Positions 7,329 to 29,195 of a stretch of DNA of 64,000 nucleotides are shown here, piece after piece. A program made the translations under genes and the position numbers. The first letter of the stretch is position 1. Each line of letters begins with the position of its first letter. Source of the DNA: Arenibacter catalasegens (GTDB lineage: Bacteria; Bacteroidota; Bacteroidia; Flavobacteriales; Flavobacteriaceae); NCBI RefSeq assembly GCF_002909235.1, contig NZ_PHQQ01000005.1, positions 1-64,000 on the forward strand. Direction: 5' to 3'. The notes below the pieces were generated by a model, which made no database searches, was not told the DNA's origin, and saw only the letters and a program-made list of their open reading frames with translations.

Positions 7329-7460
7329 AATAAATTTCTACCCAGTACCATCCCGTGCTGTCCTGTAAAATCAAAAAAAATAAATTCCTGCTTTTTAAAA
7401 ACGAAACGAAACGTAAAATGTATGTTAGCTAACCGCAACACCTCCACCACTTAAATTTCA

Positions 7461-8903: not shown

Positions 8904-9298
8904 TATTAAATTTCAATTTGGTTGCACTTTACTCCTCATTAAAGGTTACAAACATAAGGTTCTTGCGCAAATTACAAAGGAAATAGAACACCTTCCTACA
9001 AATACAAACAGATTTTTATTTAAGGCAAAAATGGAGTGCTGGACAATATTCAAATTGCCATATAATTAAAAATATCCTGTAAAATGGGAGAATCAAATTA
9101 CCAAAGCCCACGCCATTCTTATAGAAGAATTCAGAAAAATCACGAAACTATAGTGATGGTTATTTTTGGTATTAAAACCAATAAAATTAATCCAAAACAT
9201 GATCATTTGACCCACTTTTAACTTCCATGTAATTTCCGCGCCCTATTGCACCTCAACTCTCACTAAACCCCATATGAAACTTTCTCAGAAAATGTGTT
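8904..9298. other. Intergenic stretch with one promoter
   Basis: This holds the promoter of the sulfatase gene to the left (8949-8978). The rest, up to the small lipoprotein gene, shows nothing I can name. The plus-strand frame at 8788-9069 overlaps the sulfatase start and promoter and is a shadow. Confidence 0.5.
8949..8978 (-). promoter_or_regulatory. Bacteroidetes-type promoter of sulfatase at 7461-8903
   Basis: On the minus strand TTTG (8975-8978) is followed after 18 bases by TATGTTTG (8949-8956). This fits the -33/-7 arrangement of the Bacteroidetes primary sigma factor. The expected start of transcription is roughly 40 bases before the start codon at 8903. Confidence 0.65.
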
Positions 9299-9712: not shown

Positions 9713-9746
9713 TGAATTGCCTATTTTGTTTTTTTTTAATTTTCAT

Positions 9747-10055
9747 AGCTTAAAATTTTATAGTTTATAAACTAGCATTACTGAGATTGGCCATCTATTC
9801 AGATACTCCAAAACAGTATTAAAAAAATAAAACAGGGGTTGAACATTAGGCATGGAAATATTACCAAAGGTTCTTTTATTTTATGAGGTCAAAGCTTAGG
9901 CTTTAAAATAATTATTATTGATGCAATTATTAAATCAAAAATAGCATCTATGGGAAGTCGGAACTAACAGTATGGTTCTCGATATTAACAATTTAGTTCC
10001 AAAACAATGTTTGGAGAAGTACAACCCATGTATTTAATTAAGGGATAATACAAAA
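9747..10055. other. Intergenic stretch upstream of the small lipoprotein gene
   Basis: About 310 AT-rich bases between the lipoprotein gene and the terminator at 10056. I see no gene and no clear TAnnTTTG element in it. Confidence 0.45.
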
Positions 10056-10077
10056 CCCCGAGGCTAGGCCATCGGGG
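10056..10077 (-). terminator. Terminator of the four-sulfatase operon
   Basis: A CCCCGA/TCGGGG stem, extended by GG/CC with one bulged A, lies about 36 bases after the stop at 10113. On the minus strand it is followed by TTTTGTATT. Confidence 0.75.
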
Positions 10078-10112
10078 AATTATATAAATCGATCGTGAAA
10101 AGGACTTTTAAA

Positions 10113-11573: not shown

Positions 11574-11593
11574 GATATTTATTTAAGACTTTT

Positions 11594-13129
11594 CTATATT
11601 TTCTTATAGATATGCTGTAGGTCCAATTTATCCTCCATTGTTTTTTGTAGTTCCAATAGATCGGTAAATAGTGCTTTTACTTTTTCCGAATACTCAGGGT
11701 TATCGGCCAGGTCGTTCATTTCATTGGGATCTTTTTCCAGATCGAACAAAAGCACCTTTTCTATTTTTGGATACACCAAAAGTTTAAACCCATCTTTGCG
11801 TATCATGCGCTGAACATCGATATAGGCACCATAAACGCCATTGTAATGACTTTCCTGTCTTTCCCCTTTAATGATATCCATAAAACTGTTGAACTGTACA
11901 TAGTCCGGTTTCTCCAAGTTTGCCAACTCTAGGGTCGTTGCCATAATATCCTGCAAATAAACATCCTGGGGCAAACGCTTTCCCTTGGGAATACCCGGCC
12001 CCATTACCATCATTGGAATGCGCACACTATGATCGAACATACTTTGTTTTCCTATCAGTCCGTGGTGGCCTACTGAAAGTCCGTGGTCAGCTCCGAAAAA
12101 GATATAGGTATTGTCCATTTTACCGGTGGCCTCCAAAGAGTCCAATATGATACCGATCTGTTCGTCCATATGGCTTAAAAGGGCATAATATTCCTGACGG
12201 TGTACCTTAACGGCATATTCCGTTCTTGGATATGGGGCCAGTGCCTCGTCCCTTAGACTTGGCTGATTGCCCATATCATCTTTCCATGGGTATTCTGGCA
12301 AGAAATTTTCAGGAACCTTGATACTTTCCAGTGGATACATATCCAAAAACCTTTGTGGAGCCTGTCTTGGATCATGGGTGGCGTTAAAGGCTAGGTACAT
12401 AAAAAACGGATCGTCTTTTTGCTTGGCCGTTTCTATGAATGATAGGGCATCGTCACGAACCACTTCGCTCCAGTGTTTTCCACCTTCCCAAAAGCCACCT
12501 TGTAGGGTGTCCGTAGGTGACCACTCTGTATCATCTGGACCTGTTGGCCTACCATAGCCCAAAGGCATATAGTCGTTCCAATCTTTCATATTCCCGGATT
12601 CCTCTTTCCACTTCTTTATGGATGCCCCCAATTTATTGGCATGATCTTTTGGCATGCCCGGACGAATATGTCTGGTATCATTAAAGATGGTGCCAGCAGG
12701 TGCCTGCACATGCCATTTTCCCGTCATATAGGTGTCATAACCCTGCTTTTCCATTAATCTGCTCCAGGTCTGGTTCAGCGCAGTCGAGTCGCCCTTGGAC
12801 CATAAGTCACTTTTATCCTTTGCATTCCAAATATAGGAACCTGAGATGATCATAGCCCTTGAAGCCACGCAAATAGCACCGTTCCAACCTCCCATATTAT
12901 AGGCATGGGTAAAGGAAGTACCCCCGTTTACCAACCTATCCAAATTAGGGGTATGCACCTCATCAAAACCCAAGGCCCTGATACTTTCAAAGGTCTGGTC
13001 ATCGGCGAATAGAAAAACGATATTTGGCCTGTCTGGATTTTGTCCCTGCGCTTCTTTGTCTTTGGGAGCTTGTTTACACGCAGCTGTTAATATTATCAAC
13101 AACGCTATCAAACTTTTGGTTATTCTCAT
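11594..13129 (-). CDS. S1-family sulfatase lipoprotein (CVASR type)
   Basis: The frame opens with TTG at 13144, but the ATG at 13129 gives a clean lipoprotein signal (RITKSLIALLIILTAAC, Cys at about 18) and is preferred, giving 511 residues. RPNIVFLFADDQ starts the sulfatase fold. ICVASRAMIISG carries the formylglycine cysteine near 87, with Ala at the usual Pro position. GKWHVQAP and FGADHGLSVGHHG complete the active-site landmarks. DHGLSVGHHG resembles iduronate-2-sulfatase-like and choline-sulfatase-like members. It is the third gene of the four-sulfatase operon, 62 bases after the gene upstream. The substrate is unknown; in this context an algal polysaccharide fragment is likely. Confidence 0.9.
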   Translation of the reverse strand: MRITKSLIALLIILTAACKQAPKDKEAQGQNPDRPNIVFLFADDQTFESIRALGFDEVHTPNLDRLVNGGTSFTHAYNMGGWNGAICVASRAMIISGSYIWNAKDKSDLWSKGDSTALNQTWSRLMEKQGYDTYMTGKWHVQAPAGTIFNDTRHIRPGMPKDHANKLGASIKKWKEESGNMKDWNDYMPLGYGRPTGPDDTEWSPTDTLQGGFWEGGKHWSEVVRDDALSFIETAKQKDDPFFMYLAFNATHDPRQAPQRFLDMYPLESIKVPENFLPEYPWKDDMGNQPSLRDEALAPYPRTEYAVKVHRQEYYALLSHMDEQIGIILDSLEATGKMDNTYIFFGADHGLSVGHHGLIGKQSMFDHSVRIPMMVMGPGIPKGKRLPQDVYLQDIMATTLELANLEKPDYVQFNSFMDIIKGERQESHYNGVYGAYIDVQRMIRKDGFKLLVYPKIEKVLLFDLEKDPNEMNDLADNPEYSEKVKALFTDLLELQKTMEDKLDLQHIYKKI

Positions 13130-13191
13130 AATAGCTATTTTCAATTTTAATTCTTAATCCGTGATCGGTTAATTATTTAACAATGGATATT

Positions 13192-14637
13192 TCAATAATC
13201 GTTGCCTTCTGCACTGTTCTCTACAGAGGTTTTCCATTTTCTCCATTCAACTACCATTTCTTGCAGTTTTTCCGGTCTTTCAATCGCCAAATTATAACTT
13301 TCGGCAGCATCGTCCAAAATATTGTACAGCTCGAAATTTTCACCATTATCCTTACTATAGATTTTGAACTGGTTATCGATTAACGCTGCTTGACCTTGAA
13401 ACTCAAACGCTAAAGGTTCTGACCTCTTTGTTACACTACCATTTACAAAGGGAAGCAGGTCCATGCCATCATATGGTCTATTCTGATTTACCAGGTCCCA
13501 GCCTAATATATTTGCTATGGTCGGAAAATAATCCGAAGTAAAACAAGGGACTTTTACTTTGGTGCCCGGTTTAATTTTTCCCTGCCATTCCATAATACCA
13601 GGGACCCTGATACCTCCTTCATAAAGGCTCCTTTTCCTACCCTTTAATCCTTTGGTAAGTCCTTGTGTTCTACCTGTGACCGATTTTCCTTCAGGGCCAT
13701 TATCACTAGTATAGAAAAGCACCGTATTTTCAGCGATGCCCAATTCCTTTAATTTATCACGTAATCGCCCCACTTGTTTGTCCAAAGCGGTTATAACTCC
13801 ATAATAGTGTTGTTGATCTTCAGAAAGGTCACTATAGGGCTTTCGGTCTTCATCCCCTGCCAAAACGGGTAAATGGGGAGTATGGAACCAGATAATACTC
13901 AAAAATGGTTTATCACTATTTACCGCATGCTCAATAAAGGGAATAGCCCTATCCATAATAACCCGGGAATCGTCCCCCTCTAAATTCTCGGTTTCTATTT
14001 TTCCTGGGCCTGTCCAGTAATAAGTTCCAAACGGCTTTCCTTCCACCAAAGATCCATTCACGTCTCCTGAAGATTTAGAAGGAGTTACCATTGGATTCCA
14101 AGTTGGGACTTTGGATTCTGTCACAAAACTTTCATCAAAGCCATGCTCCCACGGTGGGGCATAATGCTCGTCATTTTCTTTTTTACCTCCCCTATTGGCA
14201 TCCAAGGTGTCGCGTGTAAGGGTGCCCAAATGCCATTTCCCAAAATGGCCCGTAACATACCCCTCTGCCTTCACCATTTCACCTAAGGTTTTCTCCTGTT
14301 CCTTTATATGCCCACAATTCGCCGTGCAAATGCCATAGCGCAGCGGATGTCTGCCCGTCATTACACTCCCACGGGTTGGGGAACATACCGCTGAAGCGGC
14401 ATAGAAACGTTCAAAAACTGCTCCGTTGGCCGCCATGGCGTCCAAATTAGGGGTCTTTAGATGTGGATGAGCGTTATAACCGGTATCGCCCCAGCCTTGG
14501 TCATCAGCCATCAACAAGATAATATTGGGAGGTTTATCCACAGTTAGATCAGGTTCCGCTTTTTTTGGACTTTCTAAACAACCCATCAAAGAAACCGTTA
14601 CTAGTAACCAATAGAAAATAAACGTAATTTTTTTCAT
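13192..14637 (-). CDS. S1-family sulfatase lipoprotein (CSPTR type)
   Basis: The frame opens at a TTG (14652), but the ATG at 14637, preceded by AACAGG, gives the expected lipoprotein signal (MKKITFIFYWLLVTVSLMGC) and 481 residues. PPNIILLMADDQGWGDTGYN begins the fold; CSPTRGSVMTGRHPLR holds the formylglycine cysteine at about 85; GKWHLGTLTRD and YTSDNGPEGKS are the other active-site landmarks. The GWGDTGYN and SDNGPEG patterns are those of arylsulfatase A/GALNS-type enzymes. It is the second gene of the operon. Function as an exo- or endo-sulfatase cannot be told apart. Confidence 0.9.
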   Translation of the reverse strand: MKKITFIFYWLLVTVSLMGCLESPKKAEPDLTVDKPPNIILLMADDQGWGDTGYNAHPHLKTPNLDAMAANGAVFERFYAASAVCSPTRGSVMTGRHPLRYGICTANCGHIKEQEKTLGEMVKAEGYVTGHFGKWHLGTLTRDTLDANRGGKKENDEHYAPPWEHGFDESFVTESKVPTWNPMVTPSKSSGDVNGSLVEGKPFGTYYWTGPGKIETENLEGDDSRVIMDRAIPFIEHAVNSDKPFLSIIWFHTPHLPVLAGDEDRKPYSDLSEDQQHYYGVITALDKQVGRLRDKLKELGIAENTVLFYTSDNGPEGKSVTGRTQGLTKGLKGRKRSLYEGGIRVPGIMEWQGKIKPGTKVKVPCFTSDYFPTIANILGWDLVNQNRPYDGMDLLPFVNGSVTKRSEPLAFEFQGQAALIDNQFKIYSKDNGENFELYNILDDAAESYNLAIERPEKLQEMVVEWRKWKTSVENSAEGNDY

Positions 14638-14708
14638 CCTGTTCAAGACCAATTCACCATTTTTTAATTAAACCTTTGAAAATATAAAGTCCAAGATAAG
14701 TTTTACTT

Positions 14709-16562
14709 TTAAAGTTTTTCGATATAGACATAGTAAGCAGGGTGCACCCTGCCATCCTTATCTATTAGTTGTGCTTCCATATCATATTTTCCTGCCGGAA
14801 TTTTAGCGGTAAAAGACACTTCTTTTTGGTCTTTTTCAATTTTGGCTGTTTGGTCCACGTCCGCAACATATAAATATGCTTTTTCAAAATCGTCTTTTAC
14901 ACTGGCTGGCATTGTCCTATCCAGTTCCACAATTTTCTCCTGTGCGGGAAAGGTTTGGTTTATGGCCAGCCCACTTTCTCTTGGAAATCGGCAAAGGCTG
15001 ATTTTATATTCACCATCCTCGATAAAGTCTATTTTCCATCTTCCAGTGGCCTGGGTAGCACTAACAGCACCATATTGATGCCACATATGCCCAAATTTAC
15101 CAGTTAACATATCATGGGCGGAAATACGGCTGGGATTTTCCTTAGGGGAACCAACCTTAATATAGGCATATCGTTCGTTTACGCCTTCATCCATAAATGA
15201 CTGCCACCATTTTTCATAACCCTCGGCCAGTTTCTCAACCACTTCTGGATGTTGAGAAAAAACATTTTTAGTCTGACTTCTATCACTGTTCATGTTATAA
15301 AGTTCAGTACCATTTACAAACCGCCAATTGTCATCCATTACGGAATACTTCCTGTATTTCACCAAATTTTGAAGCCTCTGGGTATCTATGTATAGCACCC
15401 GATTTGGCCAATCTTCAGCCTGGTCATAAAGTAAAGGTTTCAAGCTTTTACCGTCCAAAGGTTTTACTTGATTAAAATCGAGGCCCAAAAGATCCACAAA
15501 GGTCGGCAGTAAATCATATGCGGCGGCCAGCTTATTTATATCTTTTCCTCCTGTAAGTTGTCCATCTGGCCAACGAATAAAAAGAGGAACTCGGTGACCG
15601 CCTTCGTATTCACTTCCCTTCTGCCCCCGTAATCCAGCATCAAAAACCTTATTTCCACCTGCGGTACCATTGTCTGTCATAAAAATTAAGATCGTATTGT
15701 CCGCTATTTTTAATTCGTCCAATTTCTTTTGTAACAACTTAAAATTATCATCAATGTTAGTTATCATGCCGTAAAAACGTTGTTGGGATTCCTCTAGGCC
15801 CTTTACATCCTTGTACATATCCAAATATTCTTTGGGAAGGTTCAAAGGACCATGGGGCGCATTGGTGGCTATATAACAGAAAAAAGGGTCGTTTTTGTTT
15901 TCTTCTATAAAGTTCATTGCCTCTGAAAAGAAAACATCGGTGCAGTAACCCTTGTATTTTTGGGTTTGACTATTGTGCCAATAGGTATCATCAAAATAAT
16001 CGTTGCTCCAATAATCTGGACCTTGAGTAATTCCTCCCCCACCATGACGAACAACCTCATGAAATCCTCTGTCTTCAGGTCGGTATGGATAATTATCTCC
16101 CAAATGCCATTTTCCAAACATACCATTCGTATATCCGTTTTGAGCCAATACCTGAGGCAAAATAACCTCATCCTCAAAAAGTATGGAACGTCCAGTTATA
16201 GTGTGGAACACATTTATCCTATTCGTGTGCCTCCCAGTCATTATGGCTCCACGAGTAGGCGCACAGGTAGTGGAAACGTGAAAATTATTCAGTCGGACCG
16301 ACTCTTTATAAAAAGCATCAATGTTGGGCGTTTTAATGTAAGGATTACCATAACAACCCAAATCACCCATCCCTTGGTCATCTGTAATTACAATGATGAC
16401 GTTGGGCTTTTTCTTTATGGTACTTTGAGCAGTTGAAATTATTGGTAGGATAAATGCAGCCAAAATAAAAACCTGAAGGTTTCTTGCCAAATAACCGAAT
16501 GGACTTAAGTTGTCTTCAATCATAATTAAACTTAATTTATTTTTGAACAATTTAGTTATCAT
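14709..16562 (-). CDS. S1-family sulfatase with C-terminal beta domain (CAPTR type)
   Basis: First gene of the operon, 617 residues and longer than its neighbours. The start at 16562 or the internal Met 14 are both possible; the latter gives a 33-residue signal peptide (ends ISTAQS) and may be the true start. KPNVIIVITDDQGMGDLGCYG begins the sulfatase fold, TTCAPTRGAIMTGRH has the formylglycine cysteine at 100, GKWHLGDNYPYRPEDRGF and FMTDNGTAGG are the other landmarks. Residues about 480-617 form an extra beta-rich domain of the kind seen at the C-terminus of some arylsulfatases, possibly for substrate contact. The substrate is unknown. No upstream TAnnTTTG element is obvious. Confidence 0.88.
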   Translation of the reverse strand: MITKLFKNKLSLIMIEDNLSPFGYLARNLQVFILAAFILPIISTAQSTIKKKPNVIIVITDDQGMGDLGCYGNPYIKTPNIDAFYKESVRLNNFHVSTTCAPTRGAIMTGRHTNRINVFHTITGRSILFEDEVILPQVLAQNGYTNGMFGKWHLGDNYPYRPEDRGFHEVVRHGGGGITQGPDYWSNDYFDDTYWHNSQTQKYKGYCTDVFFSEAMNFIEENKNDPFFCYIATNAPHGPLNLPKEYLDMYKDVKGLEESQQRFYGMITNIDDNFKLLQKKLDELKIADNTILIFMTDNGTAGGNKVFDAGLRGQKGSEYEGGHRVPLFIRWPDGQLTGGKDINKLAAAYDLLPTFVDLLGLDFNQVKPLDGKSLKPLLYDQAEDWPNRVLYIDTQRLQNLVKYRKYSVMDDNWRFVNGTELYNMNSDRSQTKNVFSQHPEVVEKLAEGYEKWWQSFMDEGVNERYAYIKVGSPKENPSRISAHDMLTGKFGHMWHQYGAVSATQATGRWKIDFIEDGEYKISLCRFPRESGLAINQTFPAQEKIVELDRTMPASVKDDFEKAYLYVADVDQTAKIEKDQKEVSFTAKIPAGKYDMEAQLIDKDGRVHPAYYVYIEKL

Positions 16563-18228: not shown

Positions 18229-19497
18229 ATGGCGAGAAAAGACCCATATGCTGCGTTGAAATATAAGGAGTTTAACGTTTTTTTGATGGTCCGTTTTGCT
18301 ATGGTTTTTGCATGGTCCATGCAATTTGTGGTCATAGAATGGGAAGTCTACTCTTTGACAAAAAACCCACTTTCCCTAGGATTGATAGGGCTTATGGAGG
18401 TTATCCCTGCAGTATCATTGGCTTTGTTTGCTGGCCACATCGTTGATCAAAAAGAAAAGAAGGGTTTACTTATTAAATGTATTTTCGGTTTTTCGTTAAT
18501 AAGCTTGGGTTTGTTTTTACTTACCTGGCCTCAAATTATTAGTGAATGGTCTAAAAACACCATTTTGTATTCCATCTATTTTTTGGTATTTCTTGGTGGT
18601 ATTGTAAGAGCTTTTTTAGGGCCGACTATATTTTCGTTATTTGCATTAATTGTTCCCAAAAAAGTTTATCCCAATGCCGCTACCTGGAGTAGCTCTGTTT
18701 GGCAAATGGCAGCTGTGCTGGGTCCCGCTCTAGCGGGATTTAGCATAAATTTAATCGGAGTGCATTGGTCCATGTGCCTAATTTTTGCCTTTTCTTTAAT
18801 GGCACTCTTAATTTTAACCAAGATTGAAAAGAAACCTATTTTAAACCCTAATATTGGCGAACCCATCATGAAAAGTTTAAAGGAAGGGGTGAAATTTGTA
18901 TTTGGGACAAAAATTATTTTGGGGGCCATTACCTTGGATATGGTTGCCGTACTTTTTGGTGGAGCCGTGGCGCTGTTGCCCATTTATGCCCAAGATATTC
19001 TAAAAGTTGGACCAGAGGGATTTGGAATTTTAAGAGCTGCCCCGGCTGTAGGCGCATTGGTTATTATGTTTACTTCCGCCTATTTTCCTTTAAATAAACG
19101 TGCTGGCCTAAAACTTCTAGGGTCTATTTTTGGATTTGGAATTTGCATCATAGTATTTGGGCTTTCTACTTGGTTCTGGATTTCGGTAATCGCCCTCTTT
19201 TTCAGTGGCGTTACCGATGGAATTTCTATGATTATTCGACAAACCATTTTACAATTAAGGACACCCGACCATATGCGCGGTAGGGTAGCATCCGTGAATT
19301 CCATGTTCGTTGGGTCTTCCAATGAGCTAGGCGCCTTTGAAAGTGGTCTTACGGCCAAACTGATGGGAACGGTTACCGCAGTCGTTTTTGGTGGGTGTAT
19401 GACCTTAATTACGGTGTTTTTCACGGGGGCCATCTCCCCTACCTTTAGAAAATTGGATTTGCGAAAAGATTTGGAAGAACACGAAAACAGCGAGTAA
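18229..19497 (+). CDS. MFS transporter (EntS/MFS_3-like)
   Basis: A 422-residue major facilitator protein with about 12 hydrophobic segments. The frame opens with a TTG six bases earlier, but ATG at 18229 is preferred. The loop 2-3 motif appears as GHIVDQKEKK near residue 75 in place of the standard GxxxDRxGRR, and the set of hydrophobic segments fits the MFS_3 (enterobactin-exporter-like) group. The substrate is unknown. The stop codon at 19495-19497 directly abuts the IS3 element; the length is normal for the family, so the gene is probably intact, though the last residues could have been altered by the insertion. Confidence 0.85.
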   Translation: MARKDPYAALKYKEFNVFLMVRFAMVFAWSMQFVVIEWEVYSLTKNPLSLGLIGLMEVIPAVSLALFAGHIVDQKEKKGLLIKCIFGFSLISLGLFLLTWPQIISEWSKNTILYSIYFLVFLGGIVRAFLGPTIFSLFALIVPKKVYPNAATWSSSVWQMAAVLGPALAGFSINLIGVHWSMCLIFAFSLMALLILTKIEKKPILNPNIGEPIMKSLKEGVKFVFGTKIILGAITLDMVAVLFGGAVALLPIYAQDILKVGPEGFGILRAAPAVGALVIMFTSAYFPLNKRAGLKLLGSIFGFGICIIVFGLSTWFWISVIALFFSGVTDGISMIIRQTILQLRTPDHMRGRVASVNSMFVGSSNELGAFESGLTAKLMGTVTAVVFGGCMTLITVFFTGAISPTFRKLDLRKDLEEHENSE

Positions 19498-19545
19498 TAC
19501 ACTACTCCCCATCTGTAAGACAGCTTAAAGGTATTCCTTAGTTTA

Positions 19546-20394
19546 TCATGATGCCATTTTTTTAGCATTATAAATTTGATCGGGCGGCACTTTTCCTATT
19601 TCGGTATGCCTTCTTTTGGTATTATAGAACTCGATATACTCCCTTACCATTTGATAGAGGTCCAGACCCCCGTTTGGAGGATTCAGATATATCTTTTCAT
19701 ATTTGATCGACTTCCAGAAACGTTCGATGTAAATGTTGTCCAGGGCCCTTCCCTTGCCATCCATTGATATTTGGATGTTATTTTCTTTGAGCACATCGAT
19801 GTATTGGCCACTGGTATATTGAGCTCCCTGATCGGAGTTGTGTATCTCAGGCGCCCCGTATTTGGCAATGGTGTCCTCCAATAGTTCTATGCACCACTCT
19901 TTGTCCATTGAATTTGAAATGCTCCAATTAAGGATCTTTCTACTGTGTACATCGATTATGGCGTTCATGTACATAAAGCCCTGCAACATGGGAATATAAG
20001 TGATATCGGTCTGCCAGAGCTGATCGGGGCGTTCTATTTTCAGGTCCTTTAGCAGATAAGGGAACTTATAGCTCTTGGGGTCCCTGATAGTGGTCCTGGG
20101 CTTTCTATAAATGGTCTGTAGGTCCATAAGCTTATATAAGCGTCTTATCCTTTTCACGTTTACGCGATACCCAAGGTCAAGGTTCAGGTAATCGGTCATA
20201 CGTTCCGCCCCGTAGTAGGGGTGTTCCAAAAAGCAGGCATCCATTTCCTTCATAAGCTTTAGGTTCAACATACTCTCACTTCTGGGCCTGTAATAAAGAC
20301 CGGAGCGATGGATATCCAGGAGCTTACATTGTTGGACAAGGTTTAGCCTTGGATGGGACCTTACCACCTTCTGTCTTCTTTCGGTAGTGCTCAT
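19546..20394 (-). CDS. IS3-family transposase OrfB (DDE integrase core)
   Basis: 282 residues. The N-terminal third is the HTH_21-like segment found before the catalytic core of IS3 OrfB. The rve-type core follows, with the first Asp in WQTDITYIP, the second in HNSDQGAQYTS, and the Glu in NIYIERFWKSIKYE. The gene's ATG overlaps the orfA stop as ATGA, in the -1 frame relative to orfA. A fused OrfAB transposase could be made by frameshifting at TTTAAAG (20409-20415, minus strand). The core is intact, so the element may be active. Confidence 0.93.
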   Translation of the reverse strand: MSTTERRQKVVRSHPRLNLVQQCKLLDIHRSGLYYRPRSESMLNLKLMKEMDACFLEHPYYGAERMTDYLNLDLGYRVNVKRIRRLYKLMDLQTIYRKPRTTIRDPKSYKFPYLLKDLKIERPDQLWQTDITYIPMLQGFMYMNAIIDVHSRKILNWSISNSMDKEWCIELLEDTIAKYGAPEIHNSDQGAQYTSGQYIDVLKENNIQISMDGKGRALDNIYIERFWKSIKYEKIYLNPPNGGLDLYQMVREYIEFYNTKRRHTEIGKVPPDQIYNAKKMAS

Positions 20395-20669
20395 TTGCCC
20401 AAGGCTTTCTTTAAAAAATCGTTCTCCACTTGCAACTGGCCGATCTTATTGTAGAGTGGCCCGGTCCCGGAATCGGGATCTTCTTTTTCTGGTTTGGACC
20501 CGAAGGCCAGATCTGCATTTTCCAAAAACTCCCGTTTCCAACTTGATATTTGTGTAGGATGTAGTTCGAATTTGGCCGCGAGCTCTTGCAGGCTGCTATG
20601 CTCCTTTAACGCCTCAATGGCCACTTTGGCCTTGAACGATGCACTGAATTTTCTTCTTGATCTCTTCAT
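20391..20669 (-). CDS. IS3-family transposase OrfA (HTH)
   Basis: 92 residues of the HTH_Tnp_1 family: KFSASFKAKVAIEALKEHSS, then LAAKFELHPTQISSWKREFL as the helix-turn-helix, and a leucine-rich C-terminus (IGQLQVENDFLKKALGK) that would form the coiled coil for multimerisation. It recognises the element ends. The slippery heptamer T TTA AAG lies in frame at codons five to six before the stop, allowing a -1 shift into orfB. Confidence 0.92.
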   Translation of the reverse strand: MKRSRRKFSASFKAKVAIEALKEHSSLQELAAKFELHPTQISSWKREFLENADLAFGSKPEKEDPDSGTGPLYNKIGQLQVENDFLKKALGK

Positions 20670-20726
20670 ATTTGACAGGGTTAAATTACAACTTAACTTG
20701 CTGTCCTAAAATTGGGGAGTATTATA

Positions 20727-20879
20727 AAATACATTCGTAGGGATTGGTTAACCCTTATCTATCCTTTACCTAATAAAAGTGATGATATAAAGGCTTACAG
20801 CGTTGTAACGAGCAGTAGAAGTCATACAATGAAAAGATTGAAGCGCATTTATAAATATTATTTAATCCAAGTTGCCTAA
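20727..20879 (+). pseudogene. Possible 3' remnant of a gene cut by the IS
   Basis: Starting directly at the IS edge, one frame stays open for 50 codons to a TAA at 20877-20879 (it includes the segment RRDWLTLIYPLPNKSDDIKA). A run this long is uncommon in DNA this AT-rich. There is no start codon near the IS, so this may be the tail of an interrupted gene. I do not recognise the protein, and chance openness is not excluded. Confidence 0.35.
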
Positions 20880-20895
20880 ACTTTAGGACAATAAA

Positions 20896-20933
20896 AAAGG
20901 ATAACCAAATTACTAACTATTTAGTTATCCTTT
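20896..20933. repeat. 10-bp inverted repeat (hairpin) upstream of the helicase-like gene
   Basis: AAAGGATAAC (20896-20905) pairs with GTTATCCTTT (20924-20933) around an 18-base loop. It could be a terminator for something to the left or an attenuator or protein-binding site in the long leader of the gene at 21085. Confidence 0.6.
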
Positions 20934-20957
20934 AAGGTGTGATAGCACCATATAAAA

Positions 20958-21001
20958 ACGTGGTTAGTTGAATGTCAATTATAAGAGTAATTGAACCACG
21001 T
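20958..21001. repeat. 8-bp inverted repeat upstream of the helicase-like gene
   Basis: ACGTGGTT (20958-20965) and AACCACGT (20994-21001) flank 28 bases, 84 bases before the GTG start at 21085. Together with the hairpin at 20896 it makes this leader unusually structured, compatible with autoregulation or a replication start site. This interpretation is inference. Confidence 0.5.
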
Positions 21002-21084
21002 ACGAGAAACCCCTCTATATAAATATAACAAACATTTGTAATAAAGTCAAGTATTTATAGGGTCTCCGAATACCAATTTTAACC

Positions 21085-23904
21085 GTGAAAAATAATGAGG
21101 TTAAAGAAATTACATTTAAAACCAAGTACGTAAGTGGTGAGGCCTTAAAGGTTTTAACCACGTTTATTAAGAGCAAATATATTATAAAGGGTTCGACTGG
21201 AATAGGGGGAACGACCGCAGTATTTAACACTAACCATGGGAACAGGATAATTATTTCCCCCAATGTGGGAATGATTAAGGGCAAGGAACTTAAAAGGTGT
21301 GAATTTGTAAGCGACAAACAGGCGTTTATTTATTCTAAGAGTGCGGACAAGTGGGAGCAAGTTGAGGACTATTTAGTTAATAGTGAGATTCAAAGCTTAA
21401 TAATAAATACCACCCCCGAACAGATATTACAATTGTACGACAATAACAGGAATCTATATAATTTGCTGATTGACATACCCATTTTCATTGATGAAATTCA
21501 TTCTTATAGCGTGGACAACTCATATAGGGAAAGTGTGGGGGCATTTATGGAGCTTGTTTATAACGAATGGTTGAAACCTTTTATACTTTCAACAGCATCA
21601 CCCGTGGCTAGCTTTATTGATATACCCAAGGGAATTGATATTGAGTGTATAAAGGTAAGCCGTGAAAATGAACCAACTAAACAACTCCATTACTCAACTA
21701 ACCTGAAAGATGTTACCAATTTCATCGAAGCTGAAAACGCCAAGGGCAATTTGGTTGTGCTATTTACCAACGATAAAAAATATCATACGGCAAATAAGGC
21801 TAAAAAGGTTAAAAACCTTGTGGGGAATAACCTCAAAATTAAAATAGCACCTTACAAACGTACTAACAATATCAATGATTCAGATTTATTTGAATGTGAT
21901 TTGTTGGTGTGTAGTTCTGCCTATTTCGCTGGGTTCGATATTCCCGTTAATTGTTCGATTTGCATAGTTAGCAACCAATCCAAGGACGCTTATAAGATTT
22001 GCGTTAATAATGTAGTGCAAGCTTATGGGCGTTGCCGTGGTGTCGTTCAAAATGCCTTATTCATAAATGGTAAAAGTAAAATTAACAACCATTACCCAAC
22101 GTCTAAAAGTGAGTTGAACGGGTACTATGCGGACTATCTGAAAAAGGTTGAATATTACACTACACAATTAGAGGGCAAACAACTCCATTACCAAGTAAAG
22201 GAACATAAGCCATATATAAGCGAACAGTTATATGTTAACCGTGGGGCGTTGGTGGCTAATACCATCAATAAATTGCACGATTACCAACTTTACAATGATG
22301 AAATTTTAAGGAAAACCTTTGAGGGCTACAACTTCAATTTGATTGATTATATTGTTGTAAGTGAGTTTGATAAGGAGTTGAGCAGTTACCCATTTAAGGA
22401 GCGTTTAACGCACTTAATGAACTTGTCTGACATTGATTTGACACAAGGCTATAAATCCATTAAAAACAACTTTAAAAGCAAGGGTAACGGGGCGTTTAGT
22501 TCAAGTCTAGCTATTGAATATTTAACAGCATATTTAATTAAGGTATCCAATATGTCCGCCATGGCGGACAAACTACATAGTAAGAGGTTAAAGGTTAACG
22601 AGTTTTACAAGTCCTTTAATGTTTATCTACGTGTTAACAGCCCTACGGAACACCTCAACCACCAATTGACCAAGGCACAATATGAAAAAAGCTTTAGTCT
22701 TTACGGTAATAATCCAATTGATGGGTTGCAATACTTAATTGATGACTGGCATTACCTATATGCAATCTACAAGCTTAAAAATGGGATGTTCGATGATGCC
22801 ATTCTTAGGGAGTTGGATAAGTATGAGCAGTTTCACAATTCAGACCTATATACGAGCCTTTTTAAAGATAAACCACATAGGGTAAGGAATGCAAGAAACA
22901 GCGTTATAAAGACTTGTGAGGGGCTTAATATTGAATTGGCGGACTTTGAGTTATTCAAGTTAGATGAATGTATAAACCACGGCTTTAATATGTGTGATTA
23001 TTCTGGTAAGTATAACAATTATCACACCGCCAAACATAACGTTAATAAAATGGTTGAGGTTATTGGTTATATGCTTACCAACGAGGGCGTTAATTTTGAG
23101 GTTAAGGAAACTAAGAATAGGAGTTATAACCCAATTACACAACTACCAAGCGCACTAAGGCGAATAGTGCCTATTAAGTATGTCGAGATTGACATAACAA
23201 GCGCAAACCCTCAAATCGTGGATAGGATTTTAGGTAGTAATATAGGGCTTGACATTTACCAGAACTTAATGAAAAATAGGGGGGTTGAACGATATGAAGC
23301 TAAGAAGCTTTATAATACATTCCTAAATAACCATAGGGCGACGGTTAAGACCGCCACCAAGTTTTATTTAAGTTGTGGCTATCCAAACGATAAAGCCATG
23401 GATTTAGCCAAATTGACCGCCCAAGTTAAAAAGGGTAGCTTTTACGAGTCAATGACCGCTAGCGAATCGGTTATAATATTTGCTTATGAACAGTTCCTAA
23501 GTGATAATGGTATTAAGTCGCTTAGGTTTCACGATGCTGTATTAATTAAGGAAACCGATGCTAAGAAAATACACTTACCTACAGAAATGAAAAATTATAA
23601 ATTTCACTTAGGCTATTTTAATAACGATGAGCAATATATAAACAAGATGAAAAACAACGAATTGATAGAAGTAAAAACTAAACCTCAACACCCCAAAAAA
23701 CGAAGCTTTACCGAAATGATAGCATATTTGGAAGACCAAGTTAGGGTTGAAAAGAGGGAAGCTGAAAGAGGTTGGGTGATGGACTTATGTACTGATGCCG
23801 AGGAATGGACACCTAGTAAAACACTACAAATAATTACATTCAGTGAGGAAAGTTATAAGAGAGAGAAACAACTACACGGGGATATAGTTACACTTGGTTG
23901 GTAA
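21085..23904 (+). CDS. Helicase-like / polymerase-palm-like fusion protein of a mobile element
   Basis: A 939-residue protein starting with GTG. The N-terminal part resembles a superfamily 2 helicase: GSTGIGGTT (36-44) at the Walker A position but without the usual Lys, FIDEIHS (134-140) as Walker B, LSTASP (168-173) like motif III, and VVQAYGRCRG (310-319) like motif VI. Residues about 330-690 are helical and unrecognised. The C-terminal part has EIDITSANPQIVD (701-713) and LRFHDAVLI (813-821), which resemble motifs A and C (the HD pair) of family A DNA polymerases, with a possible motif B between them. A combined replication protein for a plasmid-like element is the simplest reading, but it rests only on motif resemblance. 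It converges with the serine recombinase gene and is separated from it by a strong hairpin. Confidence 0.6.
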   Translation: MKNNEVKEITFKTKYVSGEALKVLTTFIKSKYIIKGSTGIGGTTAVFNTNHGNRIIISPNVGMIKGKELKRCEFVSDKQAFIYSKSADKWEQVEDYLVNSEIQSLIINTTPEQILQLYDNNRNLYNLLIDIPIFIDEIHSYSVDNSYRESVGAFMELVYNEWLKPFILSTASPVASFIDIPKGIDIECIKVSRENEPTKQLHYSTNLKDVTNFIEAENAKGNLVVLFTNDKKYHTANKAKKVKNLVGNNLKIKIAPYKRTNNINDSDLFECDLLVCSSAYFAGFDIPVNCSICIVSNQSKDAYKICVNNVVQAYGRCRGVVQNALFINGKSKINNHYPTSKSELNGYYADYLKKVEYYTTQLEGKQLHYQVKEHKPYISEQLYVNRGALVANTINKLHDYQLYNDEILRKTFEGYNFNLIDYIVVSEFDKELSSYPFKERLTHLMNLSDIDLTQGYKSIKNNFKSKGNGAFSSSLAIEYLTAYLIKVSNMSAMADKLHSKRLKVNEFYKSFNVYLRVNSPTEHLNHQLTKAQYEKSFSLYGNNPIDGLQYLIDDWHYLYAIYKLKNGMFDDAILRELDKYEQFHNSDLYTSLFKDKPHRVRNARNSVIKTCEGLNIELADFELFKLDECINHGFNMCDYSGKYNNYHTAKHNVNKMVEVIGYMLTNEGVNFEVKETKNRSYNPITQLPSALRRIVPIKYVEIDITSANPQIVDRILGSNIGLDIYQNLMKNRGVERYEAKKLYNTFLNNHRATVKTATKFYLSCGYPNDKAMDLAKLTAQVKKGSFYESMTASESVIIFAYEQFLSDNGIKSLRFHDAVLIKETDAKKIHLPTEMKNYKFHLGYFNNDEQYINKMKNNELIEVKTKPQHPKKRSFTEMIAYLEDQVRVEKREAERGWVMDLCTDAEEWTPSKTLQIITFSEESYKREKQLHGDIVTLGW

Positions 23905-23997
23905 ACTGTTAAATATTCTTGGTGTGACATGACACCAAACTAAAAATCCTAAAAACCTTGTAAAGTACTGTAAACAAGTAATTAACCTAAATTCACT

Positions 23998-24050
23998 ACC
24001 CCCGTCCGCACCCCGTTATTTCTATATAACAACCCCCTGCGGACGGGGGT
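23998..24050. terminator. GC-rich bidirectional terminator between convergent genes
   Basis: A perfect 13-bp inverted repeat ACCCCCGTCCGCA (23998-24010) and TGCGGACGGGGGT (24038-24050) encloses 27 bases that contain a smaller GTTAT/ATAAC repeat. It lies between the helicase-like gene and the recombinase gene, which point toward each other. The T tracts are short, so another role, such as an origin or resolution structure, is possible. Confidence 0.65.
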
Positions 24051-24074
24051 TATTGGTACTATATAAAACGTTCA

Positions 24075-24674
24075 TCATTGGGTTGATTTTATTAACGCCT
24101 TAACCTTTTGAACAGTTGCAAGGCTAACACCGCTTAACGCTGCCGTGTTCCTTAATGACTGTTTAGCGTTAAGGTGCCTAACCACTTGCTTATACTTACT
24201 TAGTATTTGTTGAGGTGTTTCACTACTACCCTTAATACGACCTTTATACGTTCCTTTCGCTTTCGCAATGGAAATGCCCTCCCGTTGCCTTTCAAGTATT
24301 GCAGTACGTTCCATTTCTGAAATGGAACTCATTACGCTAATGATTAGGTTAAAGACTTGGTTAGGCTTACCATCTGTACGGCTTTCAATTCCTAAGTTAT
24401 CAACTTTAAGAGTAACACCGCTATCGTTGAGCCGTTGGACAGTTTGTAATATGTCCAAATTATTGCGCCCCAAACGGTCAATACTGCTAACACTGATATA
24501 ATCAACCTCACCAAGTTCAACCGCTTCAATCAACTTACTACCTTGCTCACGTTCGCTAAATGGAATCGAACCGCTAACCACATCATTAAATATTAATTCG
24601 TTATCGGTTGCCTTGTTTTTTTGGCGGTCTAATTTTTGGGTTGAGCTTGAAATCCTGTTATAACGTGCCTTCAT
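24075..24674 (-). CDS. Serine recombinase (resolvase/invertase type)
   Basis: A roughly 199-residue site-specific recombinase. Catalytic Ser is in YNRISSSTQ near the N-terminus; the conserved arginines are in SSIDRLGRNN and in the E-helix segment SSISEMERTAILERQREGI. A C-terminal helix-turn-helix (NAKQSLRNTAALSGVSLATVQKVKAL) binds DNA. The frame extends to a TTG at 24698, but that codon lies inside a TATCTTTG promoter element, so the ATG at 24674 is the start. A 13-bp inverted repeat at 24752-24808 is a candidate crossover or binding site. It is small enough to be a resolvase or invertase, for example for resolving dimers of a plasmid-like element, rather than a large integrase. Confidence 0.9.
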   Translation of the reverse strand: MKARYNRISSSTQKLDRQKNKATDNELIFNDVVSGSIPFSEREQGSKLIEAVELGEVDYISVSSIDRLGRNNLDILQTVQRLNDSGVTLKVDNLGIESRTDGKPNQVFNLIISVMSSISEMERTAILERQREGISIAKAKGTYKGRIKGSSETPQQILSKYKQVVRHLNAKQSLRNTAALSGVSLATVQKVKALIKSTQ

Positions 24675-24695
24675 AATGTATTGCTTTAAGATGCT

Positions 24696-24703
24696 CAAAG
24701 ATA
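24696..24703 (-). promoter_or_regulatory. -7 element of the recombinase gene
   Basis: The minus strand reads TATCTTTG, a match to TAnnTTTG, 22 bases upstream of the preferred ATG at 24674. No good -33 match is visible. Confidence 0.5.
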
Positions 24704-24751
24704 CATTTAATTTATTTAATGTACTAATATTAGGGTGGGTTTATTTAGCAC

Positions 24752-24808
24752 ACTTTAAACCTAGTGTTTGCGTTATACTAAAAAAAATAAGTATGCTAGG
24801 TTTAAAGT
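24752..24808. repeat. 13-bp perfect inverted repeat, candidate res/crossover site
   Basis: ACTTTAAACCTAG (24752-24764) is repeated in inverted form as CTAGGTTTAAAGT (24796-24808) around 31 bases that include a nested ATACT/AGTAT pair and an A8 tract. It lies just upstream of the promoter of the serine recombinase, where resolvase recognition sites usually sit. Confidence 0.7.
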
Positions 24809-25243
24809 ATAATCTAATAAAAGCACATCTGAATTAACTACCAAAAATATTTCTAATAAATCTTTAGTGAAGCTGTTCTACAAGTCGAGTATAAAGGTTA
24901 TATGTAAACGATGAGAGGTAGCATTGGAATCAAAATGGCTTTGAAATGGCTTTAAAAAGTACGTAGGGGCATTTTTGGAGCGTTAGCCACTAGGTTCAAC
25001 TACCCTTCATCTTTTTTACGCGAGATTGGGTGTTAAGTTTTGGAACAAAAGGAACATTTATACGCATAATGGAATAACTAGGAATTACCCCCCCCCTTGC
25101 ATAGACCCTGTAAAATTACATGGTTTAGGTATTGGCATAAGGGCTCGCGGTGTATGTTGAGTATTCCGGCTATTTATTCTATTCTAATGCTCCACGAATG
25201 TATAGCTCCTCTCAAATTTCATTACGAATTAAAATCTTAGTTT
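24809..25243. other. Intergenic stretch with C9 tract and small repeats
   Basis: No gene seen. It contains a tandem pair of AAATGGCTTT units (about 24935-24952), a run of nine C (25088-25096) and the palindrome TGTAAAATTACA shortly after it. These may belong to an origin or control region of the mobile element; no function is shown by the sequence. Confidence 0.5.
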
Positions 25244-25888
25244 TTATTCTGTACCAATTGTTTTAATTATAATCTCATTATTTTCATTAAGAGCCTTATC
25301 TATATTGCTTTTTTCTGTTTCTAATCTTTCTTTTTCTAACCGGTTGTACCAAATTGAATATAATTCTAAAACATTATTAAAATATTTTTGACCTGACAAT
25401 CGTAACAAATGTGGGAGGTATATTTTTACTGAATAACAAAAGGTATTACCAATAGTCAAAAATCCAACTTTCTCATCGGCCACTCCTGACACAAAAAATA
25501 TTGAAAATCCCTCAAGTCTATTGTAAACATCGAGTGTCGGTAGGTCTAATATTTTAAATCTCTCGTCTTCGTCCTTAAATATTTGCTTTGTCACCATTCC
25601 GTTCTTAGTCATAGTCACCGTAGATTTCTCAAAATATTCAATATTATTCTCCCTTATTGCCCTATCAAGGATGTTTATAAGTGGAATTATTGTAGTTAAA
25701 TAATATTCGCATTTATCTGCTGCAATCTTATATGATTCACGTTTTGCATTAATAATTCTAGACTCTTTTGTGGCCAGCACCTGATTTTTAGCTTCATCGA
25801 TTTGCCTAAGCCCTCTATAAGCCAAGTAGACTAGTACTGGAGCACTAATTAAATAGATTATCTCTAAAATGTTTTTAACTATCAGCAT
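25244..25888 (-). CDS. Hypothetical membrane-anchored protein (214 residues)
   Basis: One hydrophobic segment near the N-terminus (about residues 8-26) is followed by a long, charged, mostly helical cytoplasmic part with coiled-coil character (QIDEAKNQVLATKESRI). The pattern resembles small helical membrane proteins often found as cargo in mobile elements, but I do not recognise the family. It is transcribed away from the HNH nuclease gene; 249 bases separate the two starts. A role with the nuclease in defence is possible but not shown. Confidence 0.6.
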   Translation of the reverse strand: MLIVKNILEIIYLISAPVLVYLAYRGLRQIDEAKNQVLATKESRIINAKRESYKIAADKCEYYLTTIIPLINILDRAIRENNIEYFEKSTVTMTKNGMVTKQIFKDEDERFKILDLPTLDVYNRLEGFSIFFVSGVADEKVGFLTIGNTFCYSVKIYLPHLLRLSGQKYFNNVLELYSIWYNRLEKERLETEKSNIDKALNENNEIIIKTIGTE

Positions 25889-26137
25889 ATAAATATAATT
25901 TAGTTTAAAAGTACCCTTGTCATGAAAAATGAAACAATAAATAATTATAATTATTCAATAAATTTAAAGTCTAAGATATAATAATTAACTATATCTGCAA
26001 TACCCTTAAACACAAGCACGTCCATAACATTTACAGTTACGACGTTTTATTAATTGCAAGAGTATCACATAGCTTTGGAAGCTTGTATTGACTATATTTA
26101 ATAAAATTTATAACATACATGAGCCTAAATTAAAAAA

Positions 26138-26833
26138 ATGGACATTGACAATTCAAGGAGTATGGGTTGGTCTGAAGATGAGCTAAGAGCCTCTGTTCAG
26201 TCCTATTTAGAAATCCAAACTAGAACTAGACAAGGTGAAAACCCAATTAAGAAAAGGTATTATGAGAATCTATCTCAAAAGTATGGAAGGACAATTAAAG
26301 CTTATGAGTATAGAATGCAGAATATTTCTTATGTAATGCTATTGCAGGGCAGAGAGTGGATTTCTGGACTAGCCCCAATGTCAAATGTCGGAGCCAACAT
26401 AGCTGAGAAACTAGAGAATATTATAGCTGACATTGAAAAACGTAACCCAAATCCAATCGTTGCTTTCGAAGCGAAAGTTAAATCCGCCATTGGAAAGATG
26501 AAATTAACTAGGCCAAATGGGAGACAAAAGCCAAACAAGAATATTTATTTAATAAATGATTACGAACGAGATTTCATGGTAAAAGCTTGGGTACTTAAGA
26601 ATGCAGATGGTTGCTGTGAGTCATGTAACAAGAAGGCTCCATTTGAAACAATCGGAGGCTTACCTTATTTAGAAGTTCATCACGTTTTAAGCCTTGCAGA
26701 GGGGGGTTCTGATAAAGTTGAGAATACAGTAGCAGTTTGTCCTAATTGTCATAGAGAAGCTCACTATGGCACATTTAAAACTCAAATTAAGGATGCTTTC
26801 TATGCTAACATTAATCGACTGGTTGTTGAATAA
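26138..26833 (+). CDS. HNH endonuclease
   Basis: A 231-residue protein. The C-terminal third is an HNH nuclease of the McrA-like type: CESC at about 162-165, YLEVHHVLSLAEGGSDKVENTVAVCPNCH with the two active-site histidines and Asn, and the second CxxC that completes the structural zinc site, ending REAHYG. The N-terminal half (MGWSEDELRASVQSYLEIQ) is a predicted DNA- or modification-reading segment common to stand-alone restriction-like HNH proteins. No methyltransferase is next to it, so a type IV-like or element-defence nuclease is likely. It lies 50 bases from the interrupted comM and is the last gene of the putative mobile element. Confidence 0.85.
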   Translation: MDIDNSRSMGWSEDELRASVQSYLEIQTRTRQGENPIKKRYYENLSQKYGRTIKAYEYRMQNISYVMLLQGREWISGLAPMSNVGANIAEKLENIIADIEKRNPNPIVAFEAKVKSAIGKMKLTRPNGRQKPNKNIYLINDYERDFMVKAWVLKNADGCCESCNKKAPFETIGGLPYLEVHHVLSLAEGGSDKVENTVAVCPNCHREAHYGTFKTQIKDAFYANINRLVVE

Positions 26834-26847
26834 CAAAGCTATACATT

Positions 26848-27585
26848 ATGCAATTTAAAAACTCCACATTATACAGAGTAACAGACGTCGCCCTGGTCGG
26901 TGGGGGTGCCTATCCACAACCCGGAGAAATATCGCTGTCCCATAACGGAGTTTTATTTTTGGATGAATTGCCCGAGTTTAAGAGGGGCGTATTAGAGGTC
27001 ATGAGACAACCCTTGGAGGATAGGGAAGTTACCATTTCCAGGGCTAGATTTACAGTGACCTATCCCAGTAGCTTTATGTTGGTGGCCAGTATGAATCCAA
27101 GTCCCGGGGGATATTTTAACGACCCAGATGCTCCGGTTACCTCCTCACCAGCAGAGATGCAGCGCTACTTGAGCAAGATTTCTGGACCATTATTGGACCG
27201 TATCGATATTCATATAGAAGTAACCCCGGTACCTTTTGAAAAACTATCCGAAGAACGCAAAGGGGAAAGTAGTGTGGAAATTCGGAAGCGGGTTACGGCC
27301 GCTAGAGAGCTACAGACCCAACGCTTTTCGGAAATGGAGAACGTCCATTACAATGCCCAAATGAATACCAAACACATACGGAAATATTGCAAAATGGACG
27401 ACCCTTCTAAAGAGCTGTTGAAAAATGCTATGGAGCGACTAAATCTTTCAGCCCGCGCCTATGACCGAATTTTGAAAGTAGCAAGAACAATAGCCGACCT
27501 GGAAAAAGCCACGGATGTTAGCGGAAATCACATTGGCGAAGCCATCCAGTACCGCAGTCTAGACCGTGAAGGCTGGTTGGGATAA
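26848..27585 (+). pseudogene. comM: ComM (Mg-chelatase-like AAA protein), 5' half missing
   Basis: The frame encodes 245 residues; recognisable ComM sequence starts at TDVALVGGGAYPQPGEISL, about residue 12, and runs to the normal C-terminus (IGEAIQYRSLDREGWLG). ComM is normally about 510 residues. The ChlI-like N-terminal domain and the Walker A part of the AAA domain are missing; the Walker B part (GVLFLDELPEF), sensor segment and Mg_chelatase_C domain remain. The first 11 residues (MQFKNSTLYRV) come from the inserted DNA. ComM is a hexameric helicase for branch migration in natural transformation. Lacking Walker A, this fragment cannot work as an ATPase. comM is a known insertion site for genomic islands in other bacteria, which supports an element ending here at about 26880. 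Confidence 0.9.
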
Positions 27586-27641
27586 TGCTTACTTTCTTCT
27601 TTATAAATTTCATTGTAACCAAATAAACCATTATTCCTCTT

Positions 27642-29195
27642 ATGAAAATCCTTTCTAAAATTCTTATTACAGCTTTCCTTTTTTTAGGAATCTCTTCAAT
27701 AAGTCAAACAAAATCCTTAGCCCTTGCGAAAATTAATACCGAAGGCTTTCAGAAATCCCAGGTCATGAGTCTAATTGCGGACCTTTCAGATGTTTATGGT
27801 CCTCGATTAACAGGAACAGATCAATATTATACTGCAGCAGAATGGGCAAAGAAAACCATGGAAGATTGGGGTGTAGATAAGGTGTATTTTGAAAATTATT
27901 GTGATGATTGTATGGGTTGGGAAGTTAAATCATTTAATGTAGAAATGACAGCACCTGCTTATATGAAAATACAAGCCTATCCTTATGCATGGACGGAAAG
28001 TTCCAATGGTATGCAAATAGGTGATTTGATTTGGATTGAGAGTCATTCCGATTTGGAAAAGGTAAAAAAACAATGGAATGGGAAATTACGGGGAAAAACC
28101 ATTCTGATAGGATCAGTTCCAGAACATAATATGCTATTTGATGCACTTTCAACACGGTTTACTGAAGACCAAATTGAAGAAGCTGAAAAATCAATTGTTC
28201 CTGTAATTAGCAATCCTTTGGGCCCATCTGCCGGTGATATAGATTTAATTGAAGATTTAGAAGTTATATTCGAAAGTTTTATGAGAAAGGACGATGCCTT
28301 TTTTGCATTCTTAAAGGCAGAGGGAGCTTTAAGTATTTTAGGAACTTCGCCCTTTTTTCCTGGTATTGTTCATCCAAGTGGCACTTATAATTATAAAGAA
28401 AGTCATGTAAAATCAGTACCCTATTTTGCTATTTCACCGGAAAGTTTCGGGAAATTAAAACGCTTAATAGATAGGGATATTAATCCGAAAATTAAATTCC
28501 ATTTAGATTCTGAACTTTATCTAAAACCTCAAAATAATGTGAATATTATAGGGGAAATTACGGGTTCCGATTCAAAATTAAAAGACGAAGTGGTAATGAT
28601 AGGCGCACATTTCGATTCTTGGCATCCTGCCTCTGGAGCAACGGATAATGGAGCAGGTTCTGCAGTAATGCTGGAAGTGATGCGAATTATTAAAGCATCT
28701 GGATTAAAACCAAAACGAACTATTAGAATTGCACTTTGGGGAGGCGAGGAGCAAGGGTATTTGGGTTCTATGGCCTATGCGGAAAATCACTACGGAAAAG
28801 TAAAGGATAATAATAGAAAAAAAGAGGTTGAAAAGATTTCAGCATATATAAATATGGACAATGGTGCTGGGCAAATGCGCGGTATATATCTACAGGGTAA
28901 TGAAGCGGTAAGGCCCATTTTTGAAGAGATGTTATTTCCTTATGAGTATTTGGATGTTAATAATCTTACCATTCAAAACACCAATTTTACAGATCATGAT
29001 GTTTTCGACTATTACAAAATACCTGGGTTTCAAATCATTCAAGATAAATTAAACTATGAAACAGTAACGCATCACACTAATTTGGATGCATTGGAATATG
29101 TGCCCGAACGTGACATGATGATCAATGCCACTGTAATTGCAGCGCTTGTTTATCAAATTGCAGAACGGGATGCTCGTTTACAGAGAGAGGATTAA
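27642..29195 (+). CDS. Secreted M28-family zinc aminopeptidase
   Basis: 517 residues with a signal peptide (about 1-21). The M28 metal ligands are visible in order: His in GAHFDSWHPASGATDNGAG followed by the bridging Asp, the Glu-Glu pair in ALWGGEEQG, Asp in INMDNGAG, and a late His in VTHHTNLDALEYV. A PA-like insert lies between residues about 100 and 290, as in larger secreted M28 enzymes. It probably trims peptides in the periplasm. It starts 56 bases after comM; in an intact genome the two may have been neighbours before the insertion. Confidence 0.92.
   Translation: MKILSKILITAFLFLGISSISQTKSLALAKINTEGFQKSQVMSLIADLSDVYGPRLTGTDQYYTAAEWAKKTMEDWGVDKVYFENYCDDCMGWEVKSFNVEMTAPAYMKIQAYPYAWTESSNGMQIGDLIWIESHSDLEKVKKQWNGKLRGKTILIGSVPEHNMLFDALSTRFTEDQIEEAEKSIVPVISNPLGPSAGDIDLIEDLEVIFESFMRKDDAFFAFLKAEGALSILGTSPFFPGIVHPSGTYNYKESHVKSVPYFAISPESFGKLKRLIDRDINPKIKFHLDSELYLKPQNNVNIIGEITGSDSKLKDEVVMIGAHFDSWHPASGATDNGAGSAVMLEVMRIIKASGLKPKRTIRIALWGGEEQGYLGSMAYAENHYGKVKDNNRKKEVEKISAYINMDNGAGQMRGIYLQGNEAVRPIFEEMLFPYEYLDVNNLTIQNTNFTDHDVFDYYKIPGFQIIQDKLNYETVTHHTNLDALEYVPERDMMINATVIAALVYQIAERDARLQRED

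Follow-up and report, generated by a model that had tools for sequence, protein, structure and literature searches.

The window analysed here, a stretch of 64,000 nucleotides from Arenibacter catalasegens, encodes a protein in which a helicase-like region is joined to a polymerase palm. As far as sequence and structure model tell, this helicase-polymerase fusion in a mobile element is real. Its gene (21085..23904, plus strand) begins with a GTG start codon, is free of internal stops and specifies 939 aa. We consider it fairly likely that the product serves a comM-integrating mobile element as its replication protein, one polypeptide in which an SF2-homologous motor and a middle region are joined to a minimal TV-Pol-type family A polymerase; replication is the role that we infer for it. 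The fusion also provides one compact protein as a candidate for unwinding, priming and synthesis together.

Architecture and distribution of the fusion

The helicase-like motifs named in the initial annotation lie where, and in the order in which, they had been placed, namely GSTGIGGTT at residues 36-44, FIDEIHS at 134-140, LSTASP at 168-173 and VVQAYGRCRG at 310-319, and the same is true of the palm residues D703 within EIDITSANP and D817 within LRFHDAVLI. The exchange of the Walker A lysine for glycine was also read correctly, the lysine position in GSTGIGGTT being G42. Both halves are of the kind that had been claimed, with hhalign pointing to an SF2-type helicase region and the structure model and fold matches to a family A-type palm. 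The middle region between them (residues about 340-640, 22102..23004, plus strand) is conserved in the relatives and apparently helical, its helices coming only from a full-length structure model that was built from three sequences and is of low confidence. At the other end of the protein, the C-terminal tail (window 23700-23904) exceeds those of the relatives by about 35 to 60 residues in all.

The fusion is conserved in five genomes. Full-length relatives of the window protein are encoded by Winogradskyella vidalii (L033, 45.7%) and a Bacteroidia MAG (L034, 43.0%), both among 15 loci from a genome scan, and by G894 (L078, 43.2%) and G990 (L079, 33.9%), among the seven matching of 397 genomes of the family. 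An alignment of the window protein with L033 and L034 showed identical residues at K35-A45, D136, E137, Q312, G315, R316, R318, R692, D703, H816 and D817, and at the sequence level the motifs shared with the full-length relatives exceed chance. Three other genome samples, which overlap with each other and with that of the family, contained no further fusion: 60 genomes yielded the window's own fusion only, 395 genomes of the order gave five matches (the own fusion, three palm-only proteins and one chance match) and 395 genomes of the phylum gave four (the own fusion, two palm-only proteins and one helicase-only protein).

Searches of the fusion protein against 72,556 plasmid and 50,697 phage records gave no match at E 1, a plasmid megablast with 20670-26880 was likewise without a match, and protein scans of viral contigs revealed no relative. 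Eighteen stretches picked up by a motif-pattern scan of the viral contigs were dismissed as chance-like (best profile score 4.2 bits), as was a match in G311 to residues 349-533 (E 3.7e-4), which contains one stop and sits among ordinary chromosomal genes. Solved-structure searches, run with the single protein and with the full-length alignment, returned nothing credible (best E 0.14); PADLOC had no match for the window protein, and for window 19000-28000 Rfam gave no match up to E 1.

The helicase half and its Walker A motif

Residues 1-330 (21085..22074, plus strand) are homologous to SF2 helicases on sequence grounds, and DNA unwinding is their predicted activity. The profile search proposed by the initial annotation was run with a six-member helicase profile, made from the five fusions (window, L033, L034, L078 and L079) and from L071, which has no polymerase part, against 15 frames of SF2 helicases from the window's genome that had been fetched with the DEAD family and include one protein twice. 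It resulted in an hhalign probability of 97.4 (274 columns, E 1.1e-11), and motifs I, II, III, V and VI fell into register. The result was unchanged with the 14 distinct frames, and the five fusions alone reached E 5.8e-11. Among the controls, a PolA alignment and the palm alignment each had a probability of 0.1 with the helicase profile, and column-shuffled SF2 alignments had 0.1 or less in all seven that gave output. When SF2 sequences were taken one at a time, this profile reached a probability of only 0.1 to 56.2, so that the link depends on profiles on both sides. In Pfam, the window protein matched DEAD (5.8e-4, residues 31-173) and Helicase_C (4.9e-3, residues 210-317), both below cut-off, and L033, L034 and L079 had no helicase match; L078 passed the ResIII cut-off with 24.2 versus 22.5 bits. 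Motifs II, III, V and VI of SF2 occur in order, and the lysine of GKT/S, an SF2 helicase hallmark, is absent. We therefore call the region SF2-homologous.

The helicase group is broader than the fusion. In the class, 16 of 395 genomes matched the helicase profile at E 0.001 when the own fusion is counted, and in 13 of these 16 the protein has no polymerase part and an open frame spanning 601 to 722 aa. The remaining matches include a fragment at a contig end (L125), which by eye reads INKGRCGVGGTT, and L131, a more distant protein of 1165 aa from G1210. By eye, L131 reads as the fusion of a DnaG-type primase, in its N-terminal part, with an SF2 helicase whose Walker A is canonical, and it possibly represents a parallel primase-helicase fusion.

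Textbooks present the Walker A lysine as the hallmark of P-loop ATPases. In the window protein, the deviant motif reads KGSTGIGGTT (residues 35-44, 21187..21216, plus strand), with G42 at the canonical position. An alignment of 18 helicases, consisting of the five fusions and 13 polymerase-free proteins and excluding L125 and L131, has alanine at this position in ten, glycine in seven, leucine in one and lysine in none, in a set that was partly collected with profiles whose lysine position is G or A and could favour such members. L078 and L079 likewise have glycine there, and their adjacent Walker A residues vary. Seven residues upstream, K35 is lysine in all 18. L131, aligned by eye, has the canonical GIGKT and a glutamate in place of K35. 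The pattern looks like an exchange of lysines, and we infer that K35 performs the job of the P-loop lysine. If K35 does replace it, the motor would be active despite the loss of the canonical residue. WNK kinases have relocated their lysine.

The same absence of the canonical lysine from all 18 helicases could also mean that the helicase half is an ATPase-dead scaffold that binds DNA, with the polymerase half working alone. We regard this as rather unlikely, because motif II (DEIH, residues 136-139, 21490..21501, plus strand) retains D136 and E137, motif VI (QAYGRCR, residues 312-318, 22018..22038, plus strand) retains Q312, G315, R316 and R318, and the upstream lysine is kept, each in 18 of 18 proteins, none of which a dead ATPase would need. 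Moreover, 13 of the 18, with lengths of about 600-720 aa, have no polymerase part. Returning to an active motor, it is quite possible, if somewhat doubtful as a whole, that a group of Bacteroidota helicases, several of them in mobile elements, moved its P-loop lysine seven residues upstream with the motor still active, and that one branch was fused to a family A polymerase able to prime its own synthesis, arriving anew at the layout of Pol theta in a one-protein replicase. Searches of the accessible parts of the open-licence literature turned up neither an SF2 group with a relocated lysine nor an SF2-TV-Pol fusion. A helicase group that lacks the canonical lysine and keeps the other motifs and a nearby invariant lysine offers a direct test of whether this lysine can move.

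The polymerase half and its relatives

Residues about 640-860 (23002..23664, plus strand) form a TV-Pol-like set of family A-type palm, fingers and thumb according to model, VIA matches and alignment. The polymerase half is a family A-type palm whose catalytic aspartates are predicted from conservation and model. The model has the palm-fingers-thumb fold of a family A DNA polymerase, and in it the candidate motif A metal ligand D703 (23191..23193, plus strand) ends the first palm strand and the candidate motif C ligand D817 (23533..23535, plus strand) lies in a later hairpin turn, as the initial annotation had anticipated for a true palm. Both aspartates, together with R692 (23158..23160, plus strand), the candidate for the conserved hairpin arginine, are found in 21 of 21 palms; this tree set leaves out L028, L030, L081 and L082, which appear to repeat listed contigs, and L077. 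The fingers motif RxxxK (R736-x3-K740, 23290..23304, plus strand) is present in 15 of the 21, including the window protein, the six D5-type rows being gapped.

Among the further checks proposed for this half, structure prediction and fold search showed the palm, and the comparison with a PolA profile reached an hhalign probability of 4.9. The palm profile showed no link to PolA, Pfam or PDB sequences, and DNA_pol_A is absent from the Pfam matches of 16 palms. In the fold list, the rows of Pol theta stand first and those of T7 polymerase and Pol I follow 1 to 2 lower; as rows within 1 Z count as ties and the latter two are only 1 to 2 below, Pol theta is hardly distinguished. The hallmarks of TV-Pol were found in the hairpin arginine, the two aspartates, RxxxK and a minimal core without exonuclease, for which the window protein had no Pfam match. 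Helices at model positions 61-79 and 90-105, of moderate confidence, are candidates for the two-helix coiled-coil thumb of TV-Pol. The ORF 22746-24266 of Ma-LMM01, which we take to be its TV-Pol, was the one candidate published member compared, and its sequence link was not significant (E 3.3). Since no significant link to a published member was found, we file the polymerase half as TV-Pol-like rather than as a proven TV-Pol.

In six relatives, the palm is followed by a common C-terminal module, which is 40-58% identical to that of L047 over 369-405 aligned columns and always contains a GRGK[ST]-like P-loop. From its motifs and search neighbours we call this module SF3/D5-like; Pfam gave it no name in the two proteins tried (L003 and L047). 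A Salinibacter plasmid protein that matches the L047 module has a zinc ribbon of DnaG type (Pfam E 0.002) and TOPRIM (Pfam E 9.9e-4) in front of it, both below cut-off; the module also matches a protein of phage Leef_1 that is annotated as DNA primase/TOPRIM and for which Pfam lists nothing but DUF5906, below cut-off. As the same module follows DnaG-type primase parts in the Salinibacter protein, the palm occupies the primase place of at least one relative, which we count in favour of a replication protein. The same argument was applied to TV-Pol in 2008 by Iyer, Abhiman and Aravind, in the accessible part of their paper (PMC2579912).

One of the six module proteins, L003, belongs to the window's own genome and adjoins an ORF that by eye reads as an integrase. 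These ORFs form part of a second element of that genome (L003, 5245-13964 of G000 C1), which also encodes a 742-aa protein matching the phage virion structural family PHROG 15220 (7.5e-94). Palm proteins of about 800 aa occur at loci L028, L029, L030 and L035-L043, and the shared module is absent from ten such proteins. By eye, integrase-like and small DNA-binding-like ORFs lie beside the palm protein in L028-L030; that of L028, the one tested, had no Pfam and no PHROG match.

The comM element, proposed function and known systems

The right junction of the element with comM is a GT at 26887..26888 (plus strand, comM codon 280), followed by the 3' part of comM (26887..27585, plus strand), which is 97% identical to the intact comM of a genus relative. 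L033 and L078 are split at this very place, GT at comM bases 838-839, and in L078 GATGT flanks the element in comM on both sides. Just before the core, the right end of the window element resembles that of L078 by eye (CCACATTATA and ACAGAYGT). A large serine recombinase (Pfam Resolvase, Recombinase and Zn_ribbon_recom) adjoins the 5' comM half in both L033 and L078. L034 also begins in comM, with the break at base 609 and no 3' half found on its contig; in L079 no match to comM was obtained, and a tyrosine integrase lies close by. In the genus genomes G005 and G008 (L019, L021 and L027), comM is split at another site, near residue 206-210 of the query fragment, and comM therefore looks like a recurrent target.

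Between the fusion gene and comM, the window encodes a small serine resolvase (24075..24698, minus strand; Pfam Resolvase 4.8e-23), which is 58% identical to that of L033, and two genes (25244..26833) for a 214-aa protein on the minus strand and an HNH endonuclease on the plus strand. On the left, the fusion gene is preceded by a leader (20871..21084, plus strand) with inverted repeats common to L033 (compared with 5840-6056 of that locus). The leader hairpins are kept between these two sequences, both partners having changed in six of the 43 predicted pairs; read on the minus strand, one arm pair also resembles a terminator by its score. Ahead of the leader lies what is left of a gene whose product has 92 aa in relatives, its C-terminal half only (20733..20870, plus strand; tblastn 58.7% to L033 residues 46-90), cut off beside an insertion sequence; the gene precedes the fusion in L033, L034 and L078. 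This insertion sequence (19546..20669, minus strand; two transposase ORFs, Pfam rve and HTH_Tnp_1), presumably of IS3 type, marks the left edge of the element remnant. Outside the element, window 1968-16562 holds seven minus-strand genes that by eye read as sulfatases.

No 5' comM half and no large recombinase ORF were seen in the window. When comM residues 1-273 were searched against the own genome, only residues 1-22 were recovered, alone at G000 C34:542-607 (L032), near a contig start that by eye matches the insertion-sequence end. With residues 23-273 not found, comM was apparently broken twice, and what the window contains is probably the remnant of a rearranged element in which the fusion gene is still intact. 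Of the integrated plasmid-like element that had been proposed, the integrated mobile context is thus supported by the comM site and the recombinases, while a plasmid form was not found among the plasmid records.

The job of the fusion protein is probably to copy the element. In intact relatives, the large serine recombinase would excise the element as a circle, the motor, with K35 in the role of the P-loop lysine, would open the DNA or move along it, and the polymerase itself may start strands and then extend them. The small resolvase would resolve dimers, before the recombinase puts the circle back. A repair enzyme resembling Pol theta, which joins or fills the ends of element DNA, for example after excision or transfer, and takes no part in replication, is an improbable alternative in our view: its domain order and the top of the fold list would fit, and so would the missing plasmid form, but the fold list hardly singles out Pol theta, and related palms in the place of a DnaG-type primase of a related plasmid protein favour replication. 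That the motifs arose by chance in an unrelated protein would fit the lack of a curated family above cut-off for the window protein (sole PHROG match E 0.11) and is nevertheless very hard to believe, as its motifs are invariant in relatives, its helicase profile match is backed by controls and its polymerase half has fold matches.

The helicase-like ATPase of Pol theta belongs to the SF2 class and has a canonical Walker A. The window protein differs from this eukaryotic repair enzyme in its bacterial mobile element, its minimal polymerase and its lack of the canonical lysine, and as a bacterial counterpart of the same layout it may be easier to study. The accessible part of PMC8470613 describes Pol theta with its helicase-like ATPase at the N-terminus and its family A polymerase domain at the C-terminus, as in the window protein, so that the domain order had a precedent when the initial annotation took it for unknown. 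To speak of a new primase/polymerase-helicase arrangement also went too far, because the polymerase half resembles TV-Pol, which the available text of PMC2579912 presents as proposed primase-polymerases of mobile elements with other helicase fusions. The two share the minimal family A core with hairpin arginine, two aspartates and fingers RxxxK, helicase partners, and mobile elements with a gamma-delta resolvase or integrase, the last being true of the window as well; the mutually exclusive TV-Pol fusions described there have a C-terminal D5-like helicase or an N-terminal all-helical domain, in contrast to the SF2-homologous region at the N-terminus of the window protein. In SCCmec, the family A polymerase complex CCPol-MP primes de novo, a precedent that we count in favour of a self-priming replicase, and with Cch2 it places a family A primase-polymerase beside an element-coded helicase; unlike the fusion, these are three separate proteins, priming requires MP and Cch2 is another helicase, according to the accessible part of PMC7581432. 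That case has been extended to Pol-SSB pairs (PMC10061031, as far as accessible). Finally, the PolA-S3H fusions of eukaryotic viruses, in the available portion of PMC11071308, also join an exonuclease-free family A polymerase to a helicase, which is of superfamily 3 where the window protein has its SF2-homologous region.
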